Shown: positions 30,476 to 40,000 of the stretch, in pieces
Layout of the letters: each line of letters opens with the position of its first letter
How positions within the stretch are numbered: position 1 is the stretch's first letter
From: Rhodospirillaceae bacterium
GTDB lineage: Bacteria > Pseudomonadota > Alphaproteobacteria > MPNO01 > UBA2964
Direction: 5' to 3'
Length of the DNA stretch: 43,866 nt
NCBI GenBank assembly: GCA_018660305.1
Contig: JABJKO010000098.1
Coordinates: forward strand, 1-43,866
Program-made: the position numbers and the translations under genes
Notes under the pieces: generated by a model
Databases searched by the model: none
Seen by the model: the letters and a program-made list of their open reading frames with translations, nothing else
What the model was told of the DNA's origin: nothing

Positions 30476-31321
30476 ATCGAGGTCATACAATTATCCGACG
30501 CCCTGGGCGCCGAGATCAAAGGCGTCGATCTGACGCAACCGTTGGAAGCGGCCACCGTCACCGCCATCAACGATGCCTGGCTAGAGCATCTGGTGATCGT
30601 CTTTCGCGGACAGGATCTCAGCGACGATGATCAGGTCCGGTTTGGCGAATATTTTGGCCCGGTGGGCGATTATCTGCGGCCGGACACGATGCGCTCGGAG
30701 GTGATGAAGGAACGCCATCGCTCGGTGATGTTCGTCAGTAACATCGTCGAGAACGGCGAACCCATCGGCACCCTGCCCGAGGGCGAGATGATGTTTCATA
30801 CCGACACGGGCTATGCCCAGAACCCGCATAAGGCGACCACGCTTTTTGCCGTGGAACTGCCGGATACGGGCGGCCATACGATCTTTTCCAACCAGTATGC
30901 CGTCTACGACGCGCTGCCCGATGAGCTTCGCAGGAAGCTGGAAGGGCGCGAGGCTTATAACGCCTATGAATTCGGCACCATGCTCAAGACCAAAGAGCGC
31001 TATGACGCACCGGAAACCCGGACCGCCGTGCATCCCGTCTTCAAGCCACACACGGAGACCGGGCGCCCGTCCCTTTATGTGAACGAGCTGATGACCGAAT
31101 CAATCATCGGCCTGCCGGAGGAGGAAAGCCGCGCCGTGCTCGACGAACTGTTCGCCCTGCAGCGCGAGGAGCGTTTTCTCTACGAGCATGTCTGGCAGCT
31201 TGGTGACCTGGTGATGTGGGACAATCGCTGCACGCTGCACGCCCGTACCGATTTTCCACGCGGCCAGCGGCGCCTGCTTCGCCGCATCACAGTCGAGGAC
31301 GCGGCGAGCACGGCACAGTGA
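30476..31321 (+). CDS. TauD/TfdA-family Fe(II)/2-oxoglutarate dioxygenase with non-standard start
   Basis: About 281 residues. The Fe facial triad is visible: His108 and Asp110 (MMFHTDTGY) and distal His255 (TLHARTDF), followed by QRRLLRR with the 2-oxoglutarate-binding arginine. The family N-terminus IQLSDALGAEIKGVDL begins well upstream of the first TTG (30542), yet no in-frame ATG, GTG or TTG lies between the DMT stop (30404) and 30542. A strong AAGGAG (30463-30468) precedes two ATC codons at 30473 and 30476; 30476 is chosen for its 7-bp spacing. It is paralogous to the oxygenase at 34472. The substrate is unknown. The next gene overlaps by 4 bp (GTGA). Confidence 0.85.
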   Translation: MEVIQLSDALGAEIKGVDLTQPLEAATVTAINDAWLEHLVIVFRGQDLSDDDQVRFGEYFGPVGDYLRPDTMRSEVMKERHRSVMFVSNIVENGEPIGTLPEGEMMFHTDTGYAQNPHKATTLFAVELPDTGGHTIFSNQYAVYDALPDELRRKLEGREAYNAYEFGTMLKTKERYDAPETRTAVHPVFKPHTETGRPSLYVNELMTESIIGLPEEESRAVLDELFALQREERFLYEHVWQLGDLVMWDNRCTLHARTDFPRGQRRLLRRITVEDAASTAQ

Positions 31322-32604
31322 GCCTAGACGCCGAAGACCTCGTTGTCCTGGCGGATGACAACCAGATAATACCGGCTGATATACTGGCGGCCATCCAGGC
31401 GGGCGACGCCTATCCGGAAACCACCGGCTTCAGCACGACTGTCGAGTTCATCGATTTCGAGAGCCATGGCAAGCCCTTTACGCAGGTATTGACGATCCTG
31501 CGACCCCATACGCCCCGCCTCCACAAGGGCAAGGAAATCCTCGTGGTCGCCGGCGAAGGCGGCAAGGATAACGGCAACGGCTTCATCGAAACCTACGAGA
31601 AAATATCCGGCATGGCGCCGTTTCTGGCGGCGCGCGGGGTCACGGTCGCCATCGTGCCCCGGCTCGGGCGTTGGAACTTCTTCGATGAAGGGGGCAGCTG
31701 GAAGGACATTCCGCTGGGCGAACGCATGCCGGTCTTTACCCGGCATCAGGCGGCCTACTGGTCACCGGGCGATTACACCAGCCATGCCTCCAAGGGTCAG
31801 GCGAGCGACACCGGGAGCGACACCTACCGTCTGCCGGTGGCGGGCACGGCGCTATACGACCACATGCTCGCCGCCACCCCGGACACCCTCGTCGAAGGCT
31901 ACCGGCAGGGGGCTCAGCGCGCGCTGGAGATCATCGGCAAACCGCGTGACGACATCATGATGCTCTATTGGGGGTTTTCCACCGGTGGGCCGTTTCTGTG
32001 GGCGCTCAACCGTTACCTGACCGCCGACGGCATGCTGGGCTGGGGCACGTCCAACAATCCCATGGCCTATCTTTACAGCCGGGCGGCGACCGGCCATCAC
32101 GACTGGCCTTATGAGGACTCATGCCTGCGGGTGCGTGAACGGGGCCGGCCGGATTTCCACTTCTATACCAGGCACATCTCCGACGAATTGCGCGAGGAGT
32201 GGTTCCAGGAATCCCTGCATGCCCCGAATTTCAAATCCATCGAAGACGCTTTCATGCATTACAACGTGGCGGCGCTGACCGAGCATTCCACACGGCTCTG
32301 GGAGTCCGGTTTTCTGCCCGAGGAAGACCGCAAAGGCGGGTTTGCCAAATTCATCGCCAAGATTCTCGAACCCTGTTTTCCCGCCGATGAACTCCGCCAT
32401 GTCGCGGTGTGGGAAATGAACGGCACGCTGGACCAGGTGATCCAGCCGGCCAAGGTCGACGCCGCCCGCCTTGTGACCGAACCCTATTGCAAACGATACC
32501 GCGTTACCCGCCTCGACGGTTATTATCACGATGTCCTGCATGATACCTGCAAGACCGTCGCCCGTATCTGGTTCAAGGCGATCGACAGCGGGCATTTCGA
32601 TTAA
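31318..32604 (+). CDS. putative alpha/beta hydrolase of unknown substrate
   Basis: I do not recognise a named family. The 428-residue protein starts at a GTG that overlaps the oxygenase stop. It has a nucleophile-elbow-like motif WGFSTGGPFLW (Ser221), a preceding strand (DDIMMLYWG), an early EILVVAGEGGKDNGNG loop that could form an oxyanion site, and a late histidine in DGYYHDVLHDT. There is no signal peptide or membrane segment. The GxSxGG elbow suggests an esterase or peptidase-like hydrolase. Tight coupling to the upstream dioxygenase suggests that the two act on the same compound or its product. Confidence 0.72.
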   Translation: MSLDAEDLVVLADDNQIIPADILAAIQAGDAYPETTGFSTTVEFIDFESHGKPFTQVLTILRPHTPRLHKGKEILVVAGEGGKDNGNGFIETYEKISGMAPFLAARGVTVAIVPRLGRWNFFDEGGSWKDIPLGERMPVFTRHQAAYWSPGDYTSHASKGQASDTGSDTYRLPVAGTALYDHMLAATPDTLVEGYRQGAQRALEIIGKPRDDIMMLYWGFSTGGPFLWALNRYLTADGMLGWGTSNNPMAYLYSRAATGHHDWPYEDSCLRVRERGRPDFHFYTRHISDELREEWFQESLHAPNFKSIEDAFMHYNVAALTEHSTRLWESGFLPEEDRKGGFAKFIAKILEPCFPADELRHVAVWEMNGTLDQVIQPAKVDAARLVTEPYCKRYRVTRLDGYYHDVLHDTCKTVARIWFKAIDSGHFD

Positions 32605-32609
32605 GCGCT

Positions 32610-32691
32610 CCAGCCCTCTCCCGCTCCCGGCCACCCACAGGATACTCGCCCATAAACAATTGGGGGGTGGCCGGGAGGGGGAGAGGGCTGG
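32610..32691. repeat. long palindromic repeat, copy A
   Basis: Left arm 32610-32636 and right arm 32665-32691 are inverted copies of 27 bp with a single mismatch, around a 28-nt loop. The arm sequence includes CCCTCTCCC and CGGCCACCC. The loop side holds CCACCCACAGGATACT, which reappears inverted in copy B. It is palindromic-repeat-like and non-coding, and might also help terminate the hydrolase transcript. Confidence 0.9.
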
Positions 32692-32726
32692 CACCGCCGA
32701 AAATACGTACTAACTGTCGGAATATT

Positions 32727-32750
32727 TTACACCTTTGGGATTACACCTTT
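32727..32750 (+). promoter_or_regulatory. direct repeats upstream of sigma-54 promoter (possible enhancer site)
   Basis: The exact 10-mer TTACACCTTT occurs at 32727-32736 and 32741-32750, 14 bp start to start. This is about 70-95 bp upstream of the predicted sigma-54 start point, the usual distance for an activator binding site. The cognate activator is unknown and the sequence is not an NtrC consensus. Confidence 0.5.
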
Positions 32751-32793
32751 TCTCCCACTCTCTAAGTCATTGATATTTAACAAAACCGATAGG

Positions 32794-32810
32794 TTGGCAC
32801 GGTTCTTGCA
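32794..32810 (+). promoter_or_regulatory. sigma-54 (RpoN) promoter
   Basis: TTGGCACGGTTCTTGCA matches the consensus TGGCACG-N4-TTGCW at every defined position. The -24 GG (32796-32797) and -12 GC (32808-32809) are exactly 10 bp apart. Transcription would start near 32820 and run rightward into the small ORF at 32856. It is the only full sigma-54 match I noticed in the window. Confidence 0.85.
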
Positions 32811-32811
32811 T

Positions 32812-32831
32812 ACGTTAATAATTGTTAACGT
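32812..32831. promoter_or_regulatory. inverted repeat at the predicted start site
   Basis: ACGTTAA (32812-32818) and TTAACGT (32825-32831) form a perfect 7-bp dyad with a 6-nt spacer, centred on the predicted sigma-54 start point. It could be a repressor operator; as RNA only part of it would be transcribed. Confidence 0.55.
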
Positions 32832-32855
32832 CGGGCCGGAAGTAGGAGTGGAAGC

Positions 32856-32945
32856 ATGCGAATTACCTGTACCTTTGCGGTCGTTGCGATGGCCACCTTT
32901 ATTCTGGTGGCCTCTGCGCCAACCGGCATGATGGTGCTGGGCTAG
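32856..32945 (+). CDS. 29-residue hydrophobic small protein under sigma-54 control
   Basis: The 29-codon frame begins MRITCTFAVVAMATF, continues ILVASAPTGMMVLG and ends at TAG. AGGAG lies 7 bp upstream of the ATG, one of the best ribosome binding sites in the window. The peptide has one arginine then a hydrophobic run ending ASA, so it could be a single-helix membrane peptide or a signal-peptide-like leader. No family is recognised. Support comes from the complete unit around it: sigma-54 promoter, ribosome binding site, stop and terminator. Alternatively the transcript acts as a small RNA and the frame is secondary. Confidence 0.6.
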   Translation: MRITCTFAVVAMATFILVASAPTGMMVLG

Positions 32946-32963
32946 GAAATTCGCGGGACAGAA

Positions 32964-32998
32964 ACGGACCGCCGAAAAAGCGCCCCCAGGCGGTCTGT
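32964..32998 (+). other. RNA hairpin downstream of the small ORF
   Basis: ACGGACCGCC (32964-32973) pairs with GGCGGTCTGT (32989-32998), ten pairs including one G-U, with a 15-nt purine- and C-rich loop. There is no T tract, so it is not a terminator itself. It lies between the small ORF and the terminator and could be part of a structured 3' UTR or small RNA. Confidence 0.6.
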
Positions 32999-33005
32999 AC
33001 AGGAG

Positions 33006-33041
33006 CGGCGACCCTTCCCCAAGGGTCGCCGTTTTCCTTTT
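33006..33041 (+). terminator. intrinsic terminator of the sigma-54 unit
   Basis: A perfect stem CGGCGACCCTT / AAGGGTCGCCG (33006-33016, 33021-33031) with a CCCC loop is followed by TTTTCCTTTT. It would end a transcript of roughly 220 nt starting at the sigma-54 promoter. Confidence 0.9.
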
Positions 33042-33053
33042 CTAGCCTCGGTG

Positions 33054-33123
33054 CCGGCCCTCTCCCCCACCCGACCACCCAGCGCCAGTATCCTGTGGGT
33101 GGTCGGGTGGGGGAGAGGACCGG
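33054..33123. repeat. long palindromic repeat, copy B (inverted relative to copy A)
   Basis: Arms 33054-33081 and 33096-33123 are 28-bp inverted copies with one mismatch and a 14-nt loop. Read on the minus strand it shares CCACCCACAGGATACT with copy A. The two copies differ at several arm positions, but the changes are matched on both arms (for example GGCC/GGCC against GACC/GGTC), so hairpin structure seems to be maintained. Confidence 0.9.
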
Positions 33124-33139
33124 TGCGCTTCTACAACAC

Positions 33140-34324
33140 CTATATCGGTTTACCGTCGCTGGTGGCCCAGGCTTCCTGCATGAAAATGTTCGACGGATCG
33201 TTCTCGTCGAGCACCTTGCGCGCCGCCTCCGGCCCGGCGATGGGCAGATTGCCGGCGTCCAGCACGCCGATCTGTTTGAGGGCCGATCCCTGATCCCAGT
33301 AGAGATGTTCGTGGCACACCTTGTCGCCGCGAAACTTCACGATGATCACGGTGGCGATCTCGACCTGTTTGCCGGTGGGCTCAATATTGGGGAAATAGCG
33401 GTCGATCACCGAATCATGGCTAAACTTGGTATAGCTTTCGACCACAAGACGGTCCGGCCCCAGAGTAAAGGAAATCCGCTCACGGCTCCGTCCCGCGCCG
33501 TTCTGATCGACAAAATGATATTTGTAGAAGCGCTTGAGCATGTCGTGCCCAACCCCGCCGGTGAGCGTCGGCGTATGGTTCACATAGGGTTCCTCGATCA
33601 TGGTCGCCATGGTGGCGTCCACATCGCGGGTGGTGAATTCATGGTAAGTATGCTCGGCGAACAGGGCCTCATAATCATAGTAGGGCCCGAGCACGCGGCG
33701 GATAAGCTCCAGCGTGCGGGTATGGGCCAGGCTGTCGGCGCGCTTATGGAAACCATCGCGCCCGGGGATCGAAAATCCCGGACCGCCTTCTTCCCAGCCG
33801 AATACCCGCGAGCCGTCCTTTCGCGTAAGGCTGTTTTGCAGGGCCTCGACGGCCGCTTGTGCGTCGGCGGCGCCTTTGGTACCGAACTGAGCGACAAACG
33901 GACAGGGCACGGCGTCCAGGATGGCCGGGTCCGCCGCCAGCTCCAGAGCGTCGAACACGATTACCGCCTGAAAACCGGCTGGCTCGGCGGCGCGGCAGGC
34001 GAGCACGCCCCCCGCCCCATGGCCCACCGCCGCGATGCCGCCCTCGGTCTCGGGAAACCCATCAAGGATCTCAGCAGCGGCGGCGATATCGGAAACGGAG
34101 AGATCGCCGGCCAGAGCAAGAACCGAATAGCCTTCCTCGCCGAACAGCCCGGCGCGGGATTTCATACCGGCATTGAGCCCTTCCTCGTCGGTCAGCAGCA
34201 GGATGCCCGGTCCCGACCCGCTGTGATGCAGGGCGCGAAAGCCCGCTACCGAGCCCCCCGGCAAATTAATATTTATCTCGGACCCCTTTGGCGCCCGGTA
34301 CCGTTCTGCCTTGGTTTCAGCCAT
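33140..34324 (-). CDS. degenerate dienelactone hydrolase fused to an NTF2/SnoaL-like domain
   Basis: The 394-residue protein has two parts. Residues about 10-215 follow the dienelactone hydrolase fold (GILLLTDEEGLNAG, AAVGHGAGGVLACRAA). The nucleophile motif GxCxGG reads GHGAGG with Gly103 in place of cysteine, and the segment usually containing the catalytic histidine (A-x-H-G-F) reads GGPGFSIPG, so DLH chemistry is unlikely. Residues about 230-375 resemble SnoaL/ester-cyclase NTF2 folds (ATMIEEPYVNHTP, VIIVKFRGDKVCHEHLYWDQ). The second domain may carry the activity. A good GGGGAG precedes the start. It is divergent from the oxygenase at 34472 with a 147-bp shared promoter region. Confidence 0.78.
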   Translation of the reverse strand: MAETKAERYRAPKGSEININLPGGSVAGFRALHHSGSGPGILLLTDEEGLNAGMKSRAGLFGEEGYSVLALAGDLSVSDIAAAAEILDGFPETEGGIAAVGHGAGGVLACRAAEPAGFQAVIVFDALELAADPAILDAVPCPFVAQFGTKGAADAQAAVEALQNSLTRKDGSRVFGWEEGGPGFSIPGRDGFHKRADSLAHTRTLELIRRVLGPYYDYEALFAEHTYHEFTTRDVDATMATMIEEPYVNHTPTLTGGVGHDMLKRFYKYHFVDQNGAGRSRERISFTLGPDRLVVESYTKFSHDSVIDRYFPNIEPTGKQVEIATVIIVKFRGDKVCHEHLYWDQGSALKQIGVLDAGNLPIAGPEAARKVLDENDPSNIFMQEAWATSDGKPI

Positions 34325-38725: not shown

Positions 38726-39949
38726 TCAGATATCGAGCAGGATGCGCTCGGGGTCTTCGATGCATTCCTTGACCCGCACCAGGAACGTCACCGCCTCGGA
38801 CCCGTCGATGATGCGATGGTCATAAGACAAAGCGAGATACATCATGGGGCGCACTTCCACCGAATTGCCGATGGCCATGGGGCGCGGCTGGATCTTGTGC
38901 ATACCCAGAATGCCCGATTGCGGCGGGTTGAGGATGGGCGTCGACATGAGCGAACCGTAAACCCCACCATTGGTGATGGTGAAACTGCCGCCGGTCAGCT
39001 CATCGATGCTGAGTTCGCCGTTGCGGGCGCGGCGGCCGAGATCGCCGATCTGCTTTTCGATGTCGGCAAAGGATTTTCCATCGGCATTGCGTAGAACCGG
39101 GACGACGAGCCCCTGATCGGTGCCCACCGCGACGCCGAGATCCACATAGTTGCGATAGACCATATCGTCGCCATCGATCATGGCGTTGACCGCCGGGATC
39201 TCGTTGAGGGCTACGATACAGGCCTTGGCGAAGAACGACATGAAGCCGAGTTTCACCGCATGCTTTTTTTCGAACCGGTCGCGGTATTTTTCGCGGCAGG
39301 CCATCACATTGGTCATATCCACCTCGTTAAAGGTGGTCAGCATGGCAGCCGTGTTCTGCGCTTCCTTGAGACGCTCGGCGATGCGCTTGCGCAGCCGCGT
39401 CATGCGCACCCGCTCTTCGCCACGCTCGTCCGCAGCTGCCGTTGGCGCGGCGGGTGCCTTGGCTTCGGCGGGTGCGGCGGGTGCCGCACCACCCTCCATA
39501 AAGGCTATGACGTCACCCTTGGTCAGGCGACCGTCTTTGCCGGTGCCGCTGATCTGCGCCGGATCGAGATTGTTCTCATCCACCAGCTTGCGGACCGCCG
39601 GCGACAGGGAAACGCCTTCATTTCCCTGGGGCTCTGCGGCCGGTGGCGGTGCAGGAGCGGCTTTTTCCGGCTCGGGTGCCTTGGTCTCAGGGGTTTTGGG
39701 CGTAGCAACCACCGTGCCACCGTCGCCGATGATGCCGAGAAGCGCGCCGACTTCGACCTCGGATCCCTCCGCGGCGACAATTTCGGACAGGGTCCCCGCT
39801 TCCGATGCGGGCACTTCCAGCGTCACCTTATCGGTCTCAAGCTCGACCAGCGGTTCATCCCGCGCGACCGCATCGCCGACCGATTTGAACCATTTGGCGA
39901 CCGTCGCTTCGGTCACCGATTCGCCAAGCTGTGGCACCGTAATTTCCAT
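38726..39949 (-). CDS. sucB: 2-oxoglutarate dehydrogenase E2 (dihydrolipoyl succinyltransferase)
   Basis: The 407-residue protein has one lipoyl domain ([15 protein letters not shown]; lipoyl lysine Lys41 in [11 protein letters not shown]), a Pro/Ala/Glu-rich hinge, a peripheral subunit-binding domain ([19 protein letters not shown], about 108-145), a second hinge and the catalytic domain ending with [11 protein letters not shown] carrying the active histidine. The start at 39949 fits the family; an ATG at 39961 would add four residues. Confidence 0.96.
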
Positions 39950-40000
39950 AATCCTCACCATCTCCCGGTGTGCATTGTTCCAAACCCGCCGTGGCAGGCA

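Follow-up and report, generated by a model that had tools for sequence, protein, structure and literature searches.

The question raised by this locus is what a sigma-54 promoter is doing ahead of a transcript with 29 codons and a terminator of its own. A sequence-only reading had proposed a self-contained sigma-54 transcription unit whose product is a small hydrophobic peptide or a small RNA. The analysis supported a unit of this kind, about 215 nt long, that comprises a micro-ORF of membrane type, a regulatory RNA, or both. On balance, the likely reading is that it forms a PrsR/RpoN-controlled mini-transcript that encodes a conserved micropeptide and has a 3' end like that of an sRNA. The window, meaning the whole stretch of 43,866 nucleotides that was analysed, is chromosomal alphaproteobacterial DNA encoding PriA, the alpha, gamma and beta subunits of ATP synthase and 2-oxoglutarate dehydrogenase E1 (NCBIfam equivalog matches), together with a tyrosine recombinase, TauD dioxygenases and transporters (Pfam matches). 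The unit lies between gene ends at 32604 and 33140, and its promoter is thus outside coding regions. Its left neighbour is an ORF on the plus strand (31318-32604) with no Pfam match, and its right neighbour is a DLH/SnoaL-type gene on the minus strand (33140-34324).

All of the parts named in the sequence-only reading were confirmed, namely an exact direct repeat, a full-consensus sigma-54 promoter, an inverted repeat over the predicted start, an AGGAG-led ORF, and a 10-bp hairpin and intrinsic terminator 3' of that ORF (Table 1). It had not mentioned the 17-nt box upstream, the IHF-like site in the spacer or the two palindromic repeats that bracket the unit. The box and the sigma-54 motif are separated by 62 nt, and a further 45 nt separate the 17-nt sigma-54 motif from the start codon. 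Two mismatch-free matches to TGGCACN5TTGCW were present in the window; the second (39704-39719, minus strand) has no box and lies within the 2-oxoacid dehydrogenase acyltransferase gene at 38726-39961. For the direct repeat, three window matches with at most one mismatch were counted, two of them exact, against 0.57 expected.

Table 1. Features of the unit and its immediate flanks (window coordinates)
Feature	Position	Strand	Remarks
Palindromic repeat (I4)	32610-32691	.	Upstream, outside the unit; 27-nt arms, 96% complementary
PEP-CTERM box TGTCGGAATATTTTACA (predicted PrsR enhancer site)	32715-32731	+	17 nt ending TTTACA
Direct repeat TTACACCTTT, two copies	32727-32750	+	Copies at 32727-32736 (overlapping the box) and 32741-32750
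IHF-like site, reverse complement of TAAGTCATTGATA fits WATCAANNNNTTR	32763-32775	-	Full 13-mer match
Sigma-54 (-24/-12) promoter TTGGCACGGTTCTTGCA	32794-32810	+	Mismatch-free TGGCACN5TTGCW
Palindrome ACGTTAA-N6-TTAACGT	32812-32831	+	Spans the predicted +1 (~32821)
Shine-Dalgarno AGGAG	32844-32848	+	Spacing to the ATG (32856) is 7 nt
29-codon ORF MRITCTFAVVAMATFILVASAPTGMMVLG	32856-32945	+	29 aa and stop
10-bp hairpin, C-rich 15-nt loop GAAAAAGCGCCCCCA	32964-32973/32989-32998	+	Aligned to R1 helix 1
Intrinsic terminator	33002-33042	+	Stem 33006-33016/33021-33031, T-rich tail to 33042; aligned to R1 helix 2
Palindromic repeat, second copy (I3)	33054-33123	.	Downstream, outside the unit; 28-nt arms, 96% complementary

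Proteobacterial PEP-CTERM promoters have been described as a 17-nt motif 1 ending in TTTACA and a 17-nt sigma-54 motif, with a spacer of 62.8 ± 10.6 nt and a start codon on average 71 ± 38.5 nt further on, and PrsR has been proposed as their activator (Haft et al. 2006, PMC1569441). By the accessible description, the promoter in the window has the features of this class: a 17-mer ending in TTTACA, a spacer that falls within 32-92 nt, a sigma-54 motif, an intergenic position and a monocistronic layout. Unlike the promoters described there, what it drives is not a PEP-CTERM gene but an ORF of 29 residues that has a terminator to itself. Judged by its sequence, the unit very probably belongs to the PrsR/RpoN (PEP-CTERM) promoter class. 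The earlier proposal that the direct repeat is the activator site did not hold. The conserved element is instead the box, which overlaps the first copy of the repeat, and a second T[T/G]ACA within 40 nt 3' of the box was found in just 5 of 93 box promoters, the one in the window included.

The recurrence of this promoter was assessed with a strict pattern (TGTCGGN5TTTACA-N48-78-TGGCAN6TTGC), and with the same pattern reversed as a control, in 143 genomes around G001, the genome with the best PriA match (70%, locus L001) among the 80 matches listed. The strict pattern gave 60 matches in 11 of the 143 genomes and the reversed pattern gave none in all 143, so the composite of box and sigma-54 site is not explained by chance. 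In an order-level sample of 27 genomes, the strict pattern was present in 10 and a relaxed pattern in 12 (77 matches; reversed, 0); in a class-level sample the pattern occurred in 11 of 385 genomes. PrsR (TIGR02915) scored over the cut-off in five of the 27 order genomes (G001, G002, G006, G007 and G008), the G006 copy carrying an internal stop. Strict boxes were found in all five of these genomes, compared with 5 of the 22 others; the boxes in the five genomes lacking a PrsR match are possibly due to incomplete genomes. A DNA search of G001 with the unit returned short stretches only, several of them on the sigma-54 site and on the upstream TGTCGGAATATTTTACA.

The spacer between box and sigma-54 site holds a further shared element. 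Of 61 box promoters (the 60 strict matches and the window), 28 carry the motif YAANNNNTTGA there, while shuffled spacers gave a mean of 0.86 and a maximum of 5 in 200 rounds, and in 27 of the 28 it started 31-32 nt before TGGCA. The full IHF-like 13-mer was present in 5 of the 61, the window promoter among them. We take this spacer element, placed between enhancer and sigma-54 site, to fit the IHF consensus. An IHF-like site at a fixed distance adds a definite component to the PEP-CTERM promoter model; in the accessible part of the 2006 promoter description, no mention was found of a near-fixed IHF-like core before the -24 element. Sigma-70-like hexamers (TTGGCA-17-AATAAT, 10/12 positions, 32794-32822) overlap the sigma-54 site, with 0.3 such matches expected in shuffles of the region.

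In order to place the unit among other box promoters, the 92 distinct box sites besides that of the window, collected over the fetched loci, were classed by script. At 44 of the 92 sites the box was followed by an ORF of 100 aa or more that ends in a PEP-CTERM-like tail; three of these (L110, L146 and L152) were rejected by eye, so that 41 remain. Ten sites lacked such an ORF but showed a terminator within 420 nt, 31 were classed as 'other', and 7 were cut off by contig ends. The figure of 41/92 is a lower bound, because 'other' holds likely frame-broken PEP-CTERM genes as well as further micro-ORFs. Tiny transcripts thus amount to 10 of the 85 sites not cut off by contig ends, and the window unit is one of this minority. 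The earlier remark that a lone tiny product is unusual for a sigma-54 promoter was corrected in this respect: the unit is no isolated case but part of a published PrsR/RpoN promoter class, in which tiny products recur as a minority.

Membrane-type micro-ORFs of 33-54 aa were also seen behind boxes at L118, L145, L108, L210, L214, L124 and L140. Those directly 3' of a box include L118 (47 and 40 aa), L145 (41 aa), L108 (53 aa), L210 (54 aa) and L214 (43 aa). By eye, the L145 and L118 micro-ORFs have an AIS[AT]G[VI]LS-like stretch in common, and a single relative of the 41-aa L145 peptide, P0002, was found in the protein database (88% identity, E 5.6e-15).

The 29-codon ORF of the window looks coding. 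Against a reference of twelve window genes, the codon log-odds of its frame was +14.5, compared with -39.1 and -4.3 for the two other frames and -0.7 for the reverse complement. The predicted peptide is hydrophobic (15-residue maximum Kyte-Doolittle mean 2.45), lacks a PEP-hydrophobic-basic C-terminal tail and matched no NCBIfam or Pfam family at E up to 1. Around the other 92 box sites, 688 ORF starts (minimum 18 aa) lie no further than 250 nt away, and the peptide was compared with each of them, anchored at the start. The highest score, 44, went to L135 of G002 (MRISVAFALIAMTTCFLSWALLAYAG), an ORF of 26 residues that also follows a box; the next was 34. Nine of the first 17 residues are identical, and a score of 44 was reached by none of 5000 shuffles and by none of 253 pairs among 23 hand-chosen N-termini. 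By PriA, G002 (82%) stands closer to the window than the other nine genomes compared (70% or less), and the promoter spacer of this unit (L252/L135) is the second closest of the 92 to that of the window.

Other searches for the peptide gave a mixed picture. With a DNA pattern of the peptide, L135 was the sole mismatch-free match, and the list at 0-3 mismatches was otherwise background-like. Plain tblastn placed an unrelated ORF of G014 (L159, E 0.013) above L135 (E 0.71), and a protein search of the order with the 29-mer gave L159 as its single match (E 0.117) and did not recover L135. G014 has no box, and L159 was rejected as a relative and read as a chance match. The aligned DNA of the window and L135 differs at 20 places in 17 codons (7, 3 and 10 by codon position), too few differences, from two sequences, for a substitution test. 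In G002, the L135 ORF is followed, before the contig ends, by a second ORF with its own SD, so the peptide may open an operon there. From this one relative, the micro-ORF is probably translated and under selection.

The 3' part of the unit has a different character. The segment 32946-33042 folded better than all of 200 shuffles (z -4.34), and the folding of 32821-32945 was ordinary (z -0.49, 56 of 200 shuffles as good). Directly behind the box sigma-54 promoters of six loci (L101, L105, L142, L115, L116 and L251), an element was found with a covarying stem, an invariant loop TGACGCCWACCCC (UGACGCCWACCCC) and a GC-rich terminator; by alignment, these form a candidate new small RNA family. The six-sequence alignment, in which three sequences are near-identical, has two helices with changes on both sides in 9 of 26 pairs (shuffle mean 2.3), a level matched by none of 500 shuffles. 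The motif TGACGCCNACCC occurred at six places in the loci searched (G001, G002, G004, G006, G007 and G018), all of them 52-252 nt behind a box promoter, a count that is biased because the loci were mostly fetched for their boxes. L116 seems to carry three family hairpins in tandem.

When the window was searched with a model of this family (R1), positions 32959-33045 scored 26.6 bits (E 7.8e-5 over the window). Control maxima were 19.5 bits over 79 loci (1.49 Mb) and 21.7 bits over a set of 48 loci (176 kb), mostly of the same order; the latter is biased slightly upwards because the locus that gave it, L083, had been fetched for its likeness to the 3' end of the unit. Matches of 22-23 bits (L210, L188, L144 and L214) were set aside as inseparable from the same-order background of 21.7 bits. 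The window unit has the plan of the family, with a box and sigma-54 promoter followed by two tandem helices of which the second is the terminator. The invariant loop TGACGCCWACCCC is missing from its hairpin, where GAAAAAGCGCCCCCA stands instead, and TGACGCCNACCC was found nowhere in the window. No Rfam family scored over its gathering score in the unit; matches to Xoo2 (Rfam) in L142 and L105 were under the gathering score. It is somewhat doubtful, from this evidence, that the 3' end of the window transcript also acts as a regulatory RNA.

R1 also matched behind box-linked ORFs, at L134 (37.4 bits, after a 62-aa ORF) and at L127 (42.3 bits), and at the 3' ends of PEP-CTERM genes at L154 (72.6 bits) and L132 (26.8 bits). 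Several kinds of box transcript therefore share the tandem-hairpin 3' end. At L154 (2058-2143, minus strand) and L132 (1141-1224, plus strand), the hairpin and terminator lie over the PEP-CTERM stop codon, with the TGA in the loop, and the two elements are possible 3'-UTR-derived RNAs. A generic PEP-CTERM 3'-UTR element was rejected: TGA-GCC-ACC was absent within 60 nt of the stop in the genes flagged as PEP by pattern; L132 and L154, two PEP-CTERM genes that the pattern had missed, do carry it, so the motif is not general. The transcribed part was likewise rejected as a conserved DNA element, as blastn with 32812-33045 gave no copy of the unit in 143 genomes; short matches of 20-34 nt in 9 of the 143 (E up to 0.05) were read as chance.

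The syntenic place in G002 (contig C3, L251) carries PriA, XerC, EamA and TauD1 in the order of the window, followed by what is left of the upstream ORF. The upstream gene of the window (31318-32604) is reduced there to residues 343-428 behind TauD1 (L251 6236-7361), a lineage-specific deletion beside the box unit. Past the synteny block, a palindromic repeat and a 182-codon reverse ORF are followed by a box unit consisting of a box TGTCGGAAAACTTGACA, an IHF-like site TAACCCATTGACG, then TTGGCACGATTCTTGCA, and a short RNA that has a hairpin with loop TGACGCCAACCCC and a terminator. The peptide of the window is absent from this unit, and the likeness of its promoter spacer to that of the window ranks 22nd of 92. 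The contig ends at the box unit, so synteny is visible on one side only. The DLH/SnoaL neighbour had homologues in 23 of 27 genomes (E up to 0.001) when taken as a locus marker, and the other neighbours were found in none of 10 fetched loci. Conservation in close relatives, by which the sequence-only reading had asked to be judged, therefore gave a divided answer: G002 does have both promoter and peptide, though at a different site, and at the syntenic place the promoter is kept but heads a small RNA without the peptide. Neither of the aligned G002 units, L135 and L251, shows the palindrome that the window unit has over its start site.

Other explanations were weighed against the favoured one. 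The unit may act as a regulatory RNA alone, with a C-rich loop pairing with mRNAs and a 29-codon frame that is incidental or a relic. The syntenic G002 box, which drives a short RNA of the six-genome family with covarying stems and loop TGACGCCWACCCC, argues for this, as do the fit of the window 3' end to R1 and the location of the strongest fold signal 3' of the ORF. However, the SD stands at a good distance from the ORF, whose codon use is coding-like and whose best match, L135, lies behind a like promoter; the window hairpin lacks the invariant loop; and the window spacer is nearer to that of L252/L135, the micro-ORF unit (second of 92), than to that of L251, the RNA unit (22nd). An RNA without a peptide is thus considered unlikely, though deserving of attention. 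It is less probable still that the unit is the relic of a PEP-CTERM gene from which an internal deletion took the body and the sorting tail and left the promoter, signal peptide and terminator. The resemblance of the peptide to a signal peptide, the normal use of box promoters for PEP-CTERM genes and the R1-like 3' ends just behind two such genes (L154 and L132) would suit a relic, but G002 holds a similar peptide that stops at nearly the same point (26 aa), no PEP-CTERM N-terminus among the 688 starts comes close, and other short units recur at the untruncated box sites.

Small membrane toxins have a range of size and hydrophobicity into which the 29-aa peptide fits. A type I toxin-like peptide, or a leader peptide for a downstream gene, would agree with its length, its Kyte-Doolittle value and the second ORF with its own SD after L135 in G002, but is very improbable: no opposite-strand sigma-70-like promoter was found in 32600-33140 in a scan for that promoter type alone, and there is nothing for the window unit to lead because the terminator is strong and the next gene lies on the other strand. 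Least credible, and hardly to be expected, is a sigma-54 unit of another regulator that binds the TTACACCTTT repeat. An exact 10-nt direct repeat at enhancer distance would be suitable for such a regulator, but the repeat is not class-wide, whereas the 17-nt box at fixed spacing is.

The sequence itself shows the architecture of the unit, the recurrence of its promoter, a similar peptide in G002 and the RNA family. Points that speak against the favoured reading are the palindromic repeats on both flanks, the sigma-70-like hexamers over the sigma-54 site, the short peptide match, the syntenic G002 unit without the peptide and the hairpin without the invariant loop. For the favoured mini-transcript of the PEP-CTERM (PrsK/PrsR, RpoN) regulon, we infer a mechanism in which phosphorylated PrsR would bind TGTCGGAATATTTTACA, IHF would bend the DNA at its site in the spacer, and PrsR would drive open-complex formation by RpoN-RNA polymerase at the sigma-54 promoter. 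The predicted transcript would run for about 215 nt from ~32821 to the terminator at ~33040, and AGGAG would lead translation of the 29-residue hydrophobic peptide, presumably as a single membrane span or a signal-peptide-like segment. The 3' end, with its C-rich-loop hairpin and terminator, resembles that of the box-driven RNA family, which stands alone at the same place in G002. The product is most likely a small mRNA whose peptide would act in or at the inner membrane during an exopolysaccharide/PEP-CTERM programme, and the 3' end of this mRNA might double as a regulatory RNA.

The CcsR or 'cuckoo' RNAs of Alphaproteobacteria consist of a small ORF followed by a C-rich-loop hairpin and a terminator, which is the same general plan as that of the window unit. 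The unit is not a member of that family, scoring 19.7 bits against RF02791 (gathering score 65.3) and lacking a CCUCCUCCC loop. MgrB is a small inner-membrane regulator peptide. The peptide of the window is similar to MgrB-type peptides in being short, hydrophobic and, by prediction, from a membrane-kinase regulon, and by analogy could feed back on its kinase; the likeness is one of general features, and no sequence relation is claimed. Among PEP-CTERM genes, pepA of Aquincola tertiaricarbonis has been shown to be RpoN-dependent, but it encodes a PEP-CTERM protein, unlike the window unit (PMC9850573). In Desulfovibrio vulgaris, the PrsR-type response regulator DVUA0057 binds predicted PEP-CTERM promoters by DAP-chip (PMC3333781), and other sigma-54 regulators of that species do control sRNAs, one of them being a target of DVU0679; its sigma-54 regulome includes 4 non-coding RNAs (PMC3333781, PMC4641369). 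As far as the accessible text of these two papers describes them, the targets of DVUA0057 are protein operons, with no sRNA or micropeptide, unlike the window unit. The literature searched, which was mostly outside the subscription journals, contained no account of an sRNA or a micropeptide driven from a PrsR box.

What is known of PEP-CTERM/exosortase systems comes mainly from predicted matrix proteins. A micropeptide unit behind a switch usually used for extracellular-matrix (PEP-CTERM) proteins suggests that tiny peptides and small RNAs are part of the regulon. This might indicate that the PrsR/RpoN regulon has a hidden mini-transcript arm, made up of the sRNA family and membrane micropeptides, with the window unit as a dual-function member, a suggestion that is tentative but worth considering. 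If box promoters also make sRNAs and micropeptides, the regulon would have post-transcriptional and membrane-level control parts, of a kind that gene callers skip.

A search of a plasmid collection with the unit gave the flanking palindrome as its sole match. The copy at 33054-33123 was 91.8% alike in the Novosphingobium resinovorum plasmid NZ_CP017076.1; for Sphingomonas sanguinis NZ_CP079204.1 the likeness of the repeat was 84.2%, and each record had 4 places. A protein segment of about 46 residues, of the type GEPD...W..YR..L..LP...ENVRVAIAVADARIARL, was observed behind boxes or near PEP-CTERM genes at L212, L205, L082, L120, L102, L104 and L103 (tblastn against the L212 protein, E 1e-7 to 1e-11). 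At L208 (G006) and L215 (G007), a box-like site with a 50-51 nt spacer was followed by very long ORFs starting ...TGRVLFARALEPRFMLDGAA, which are presumably large surface proteins.
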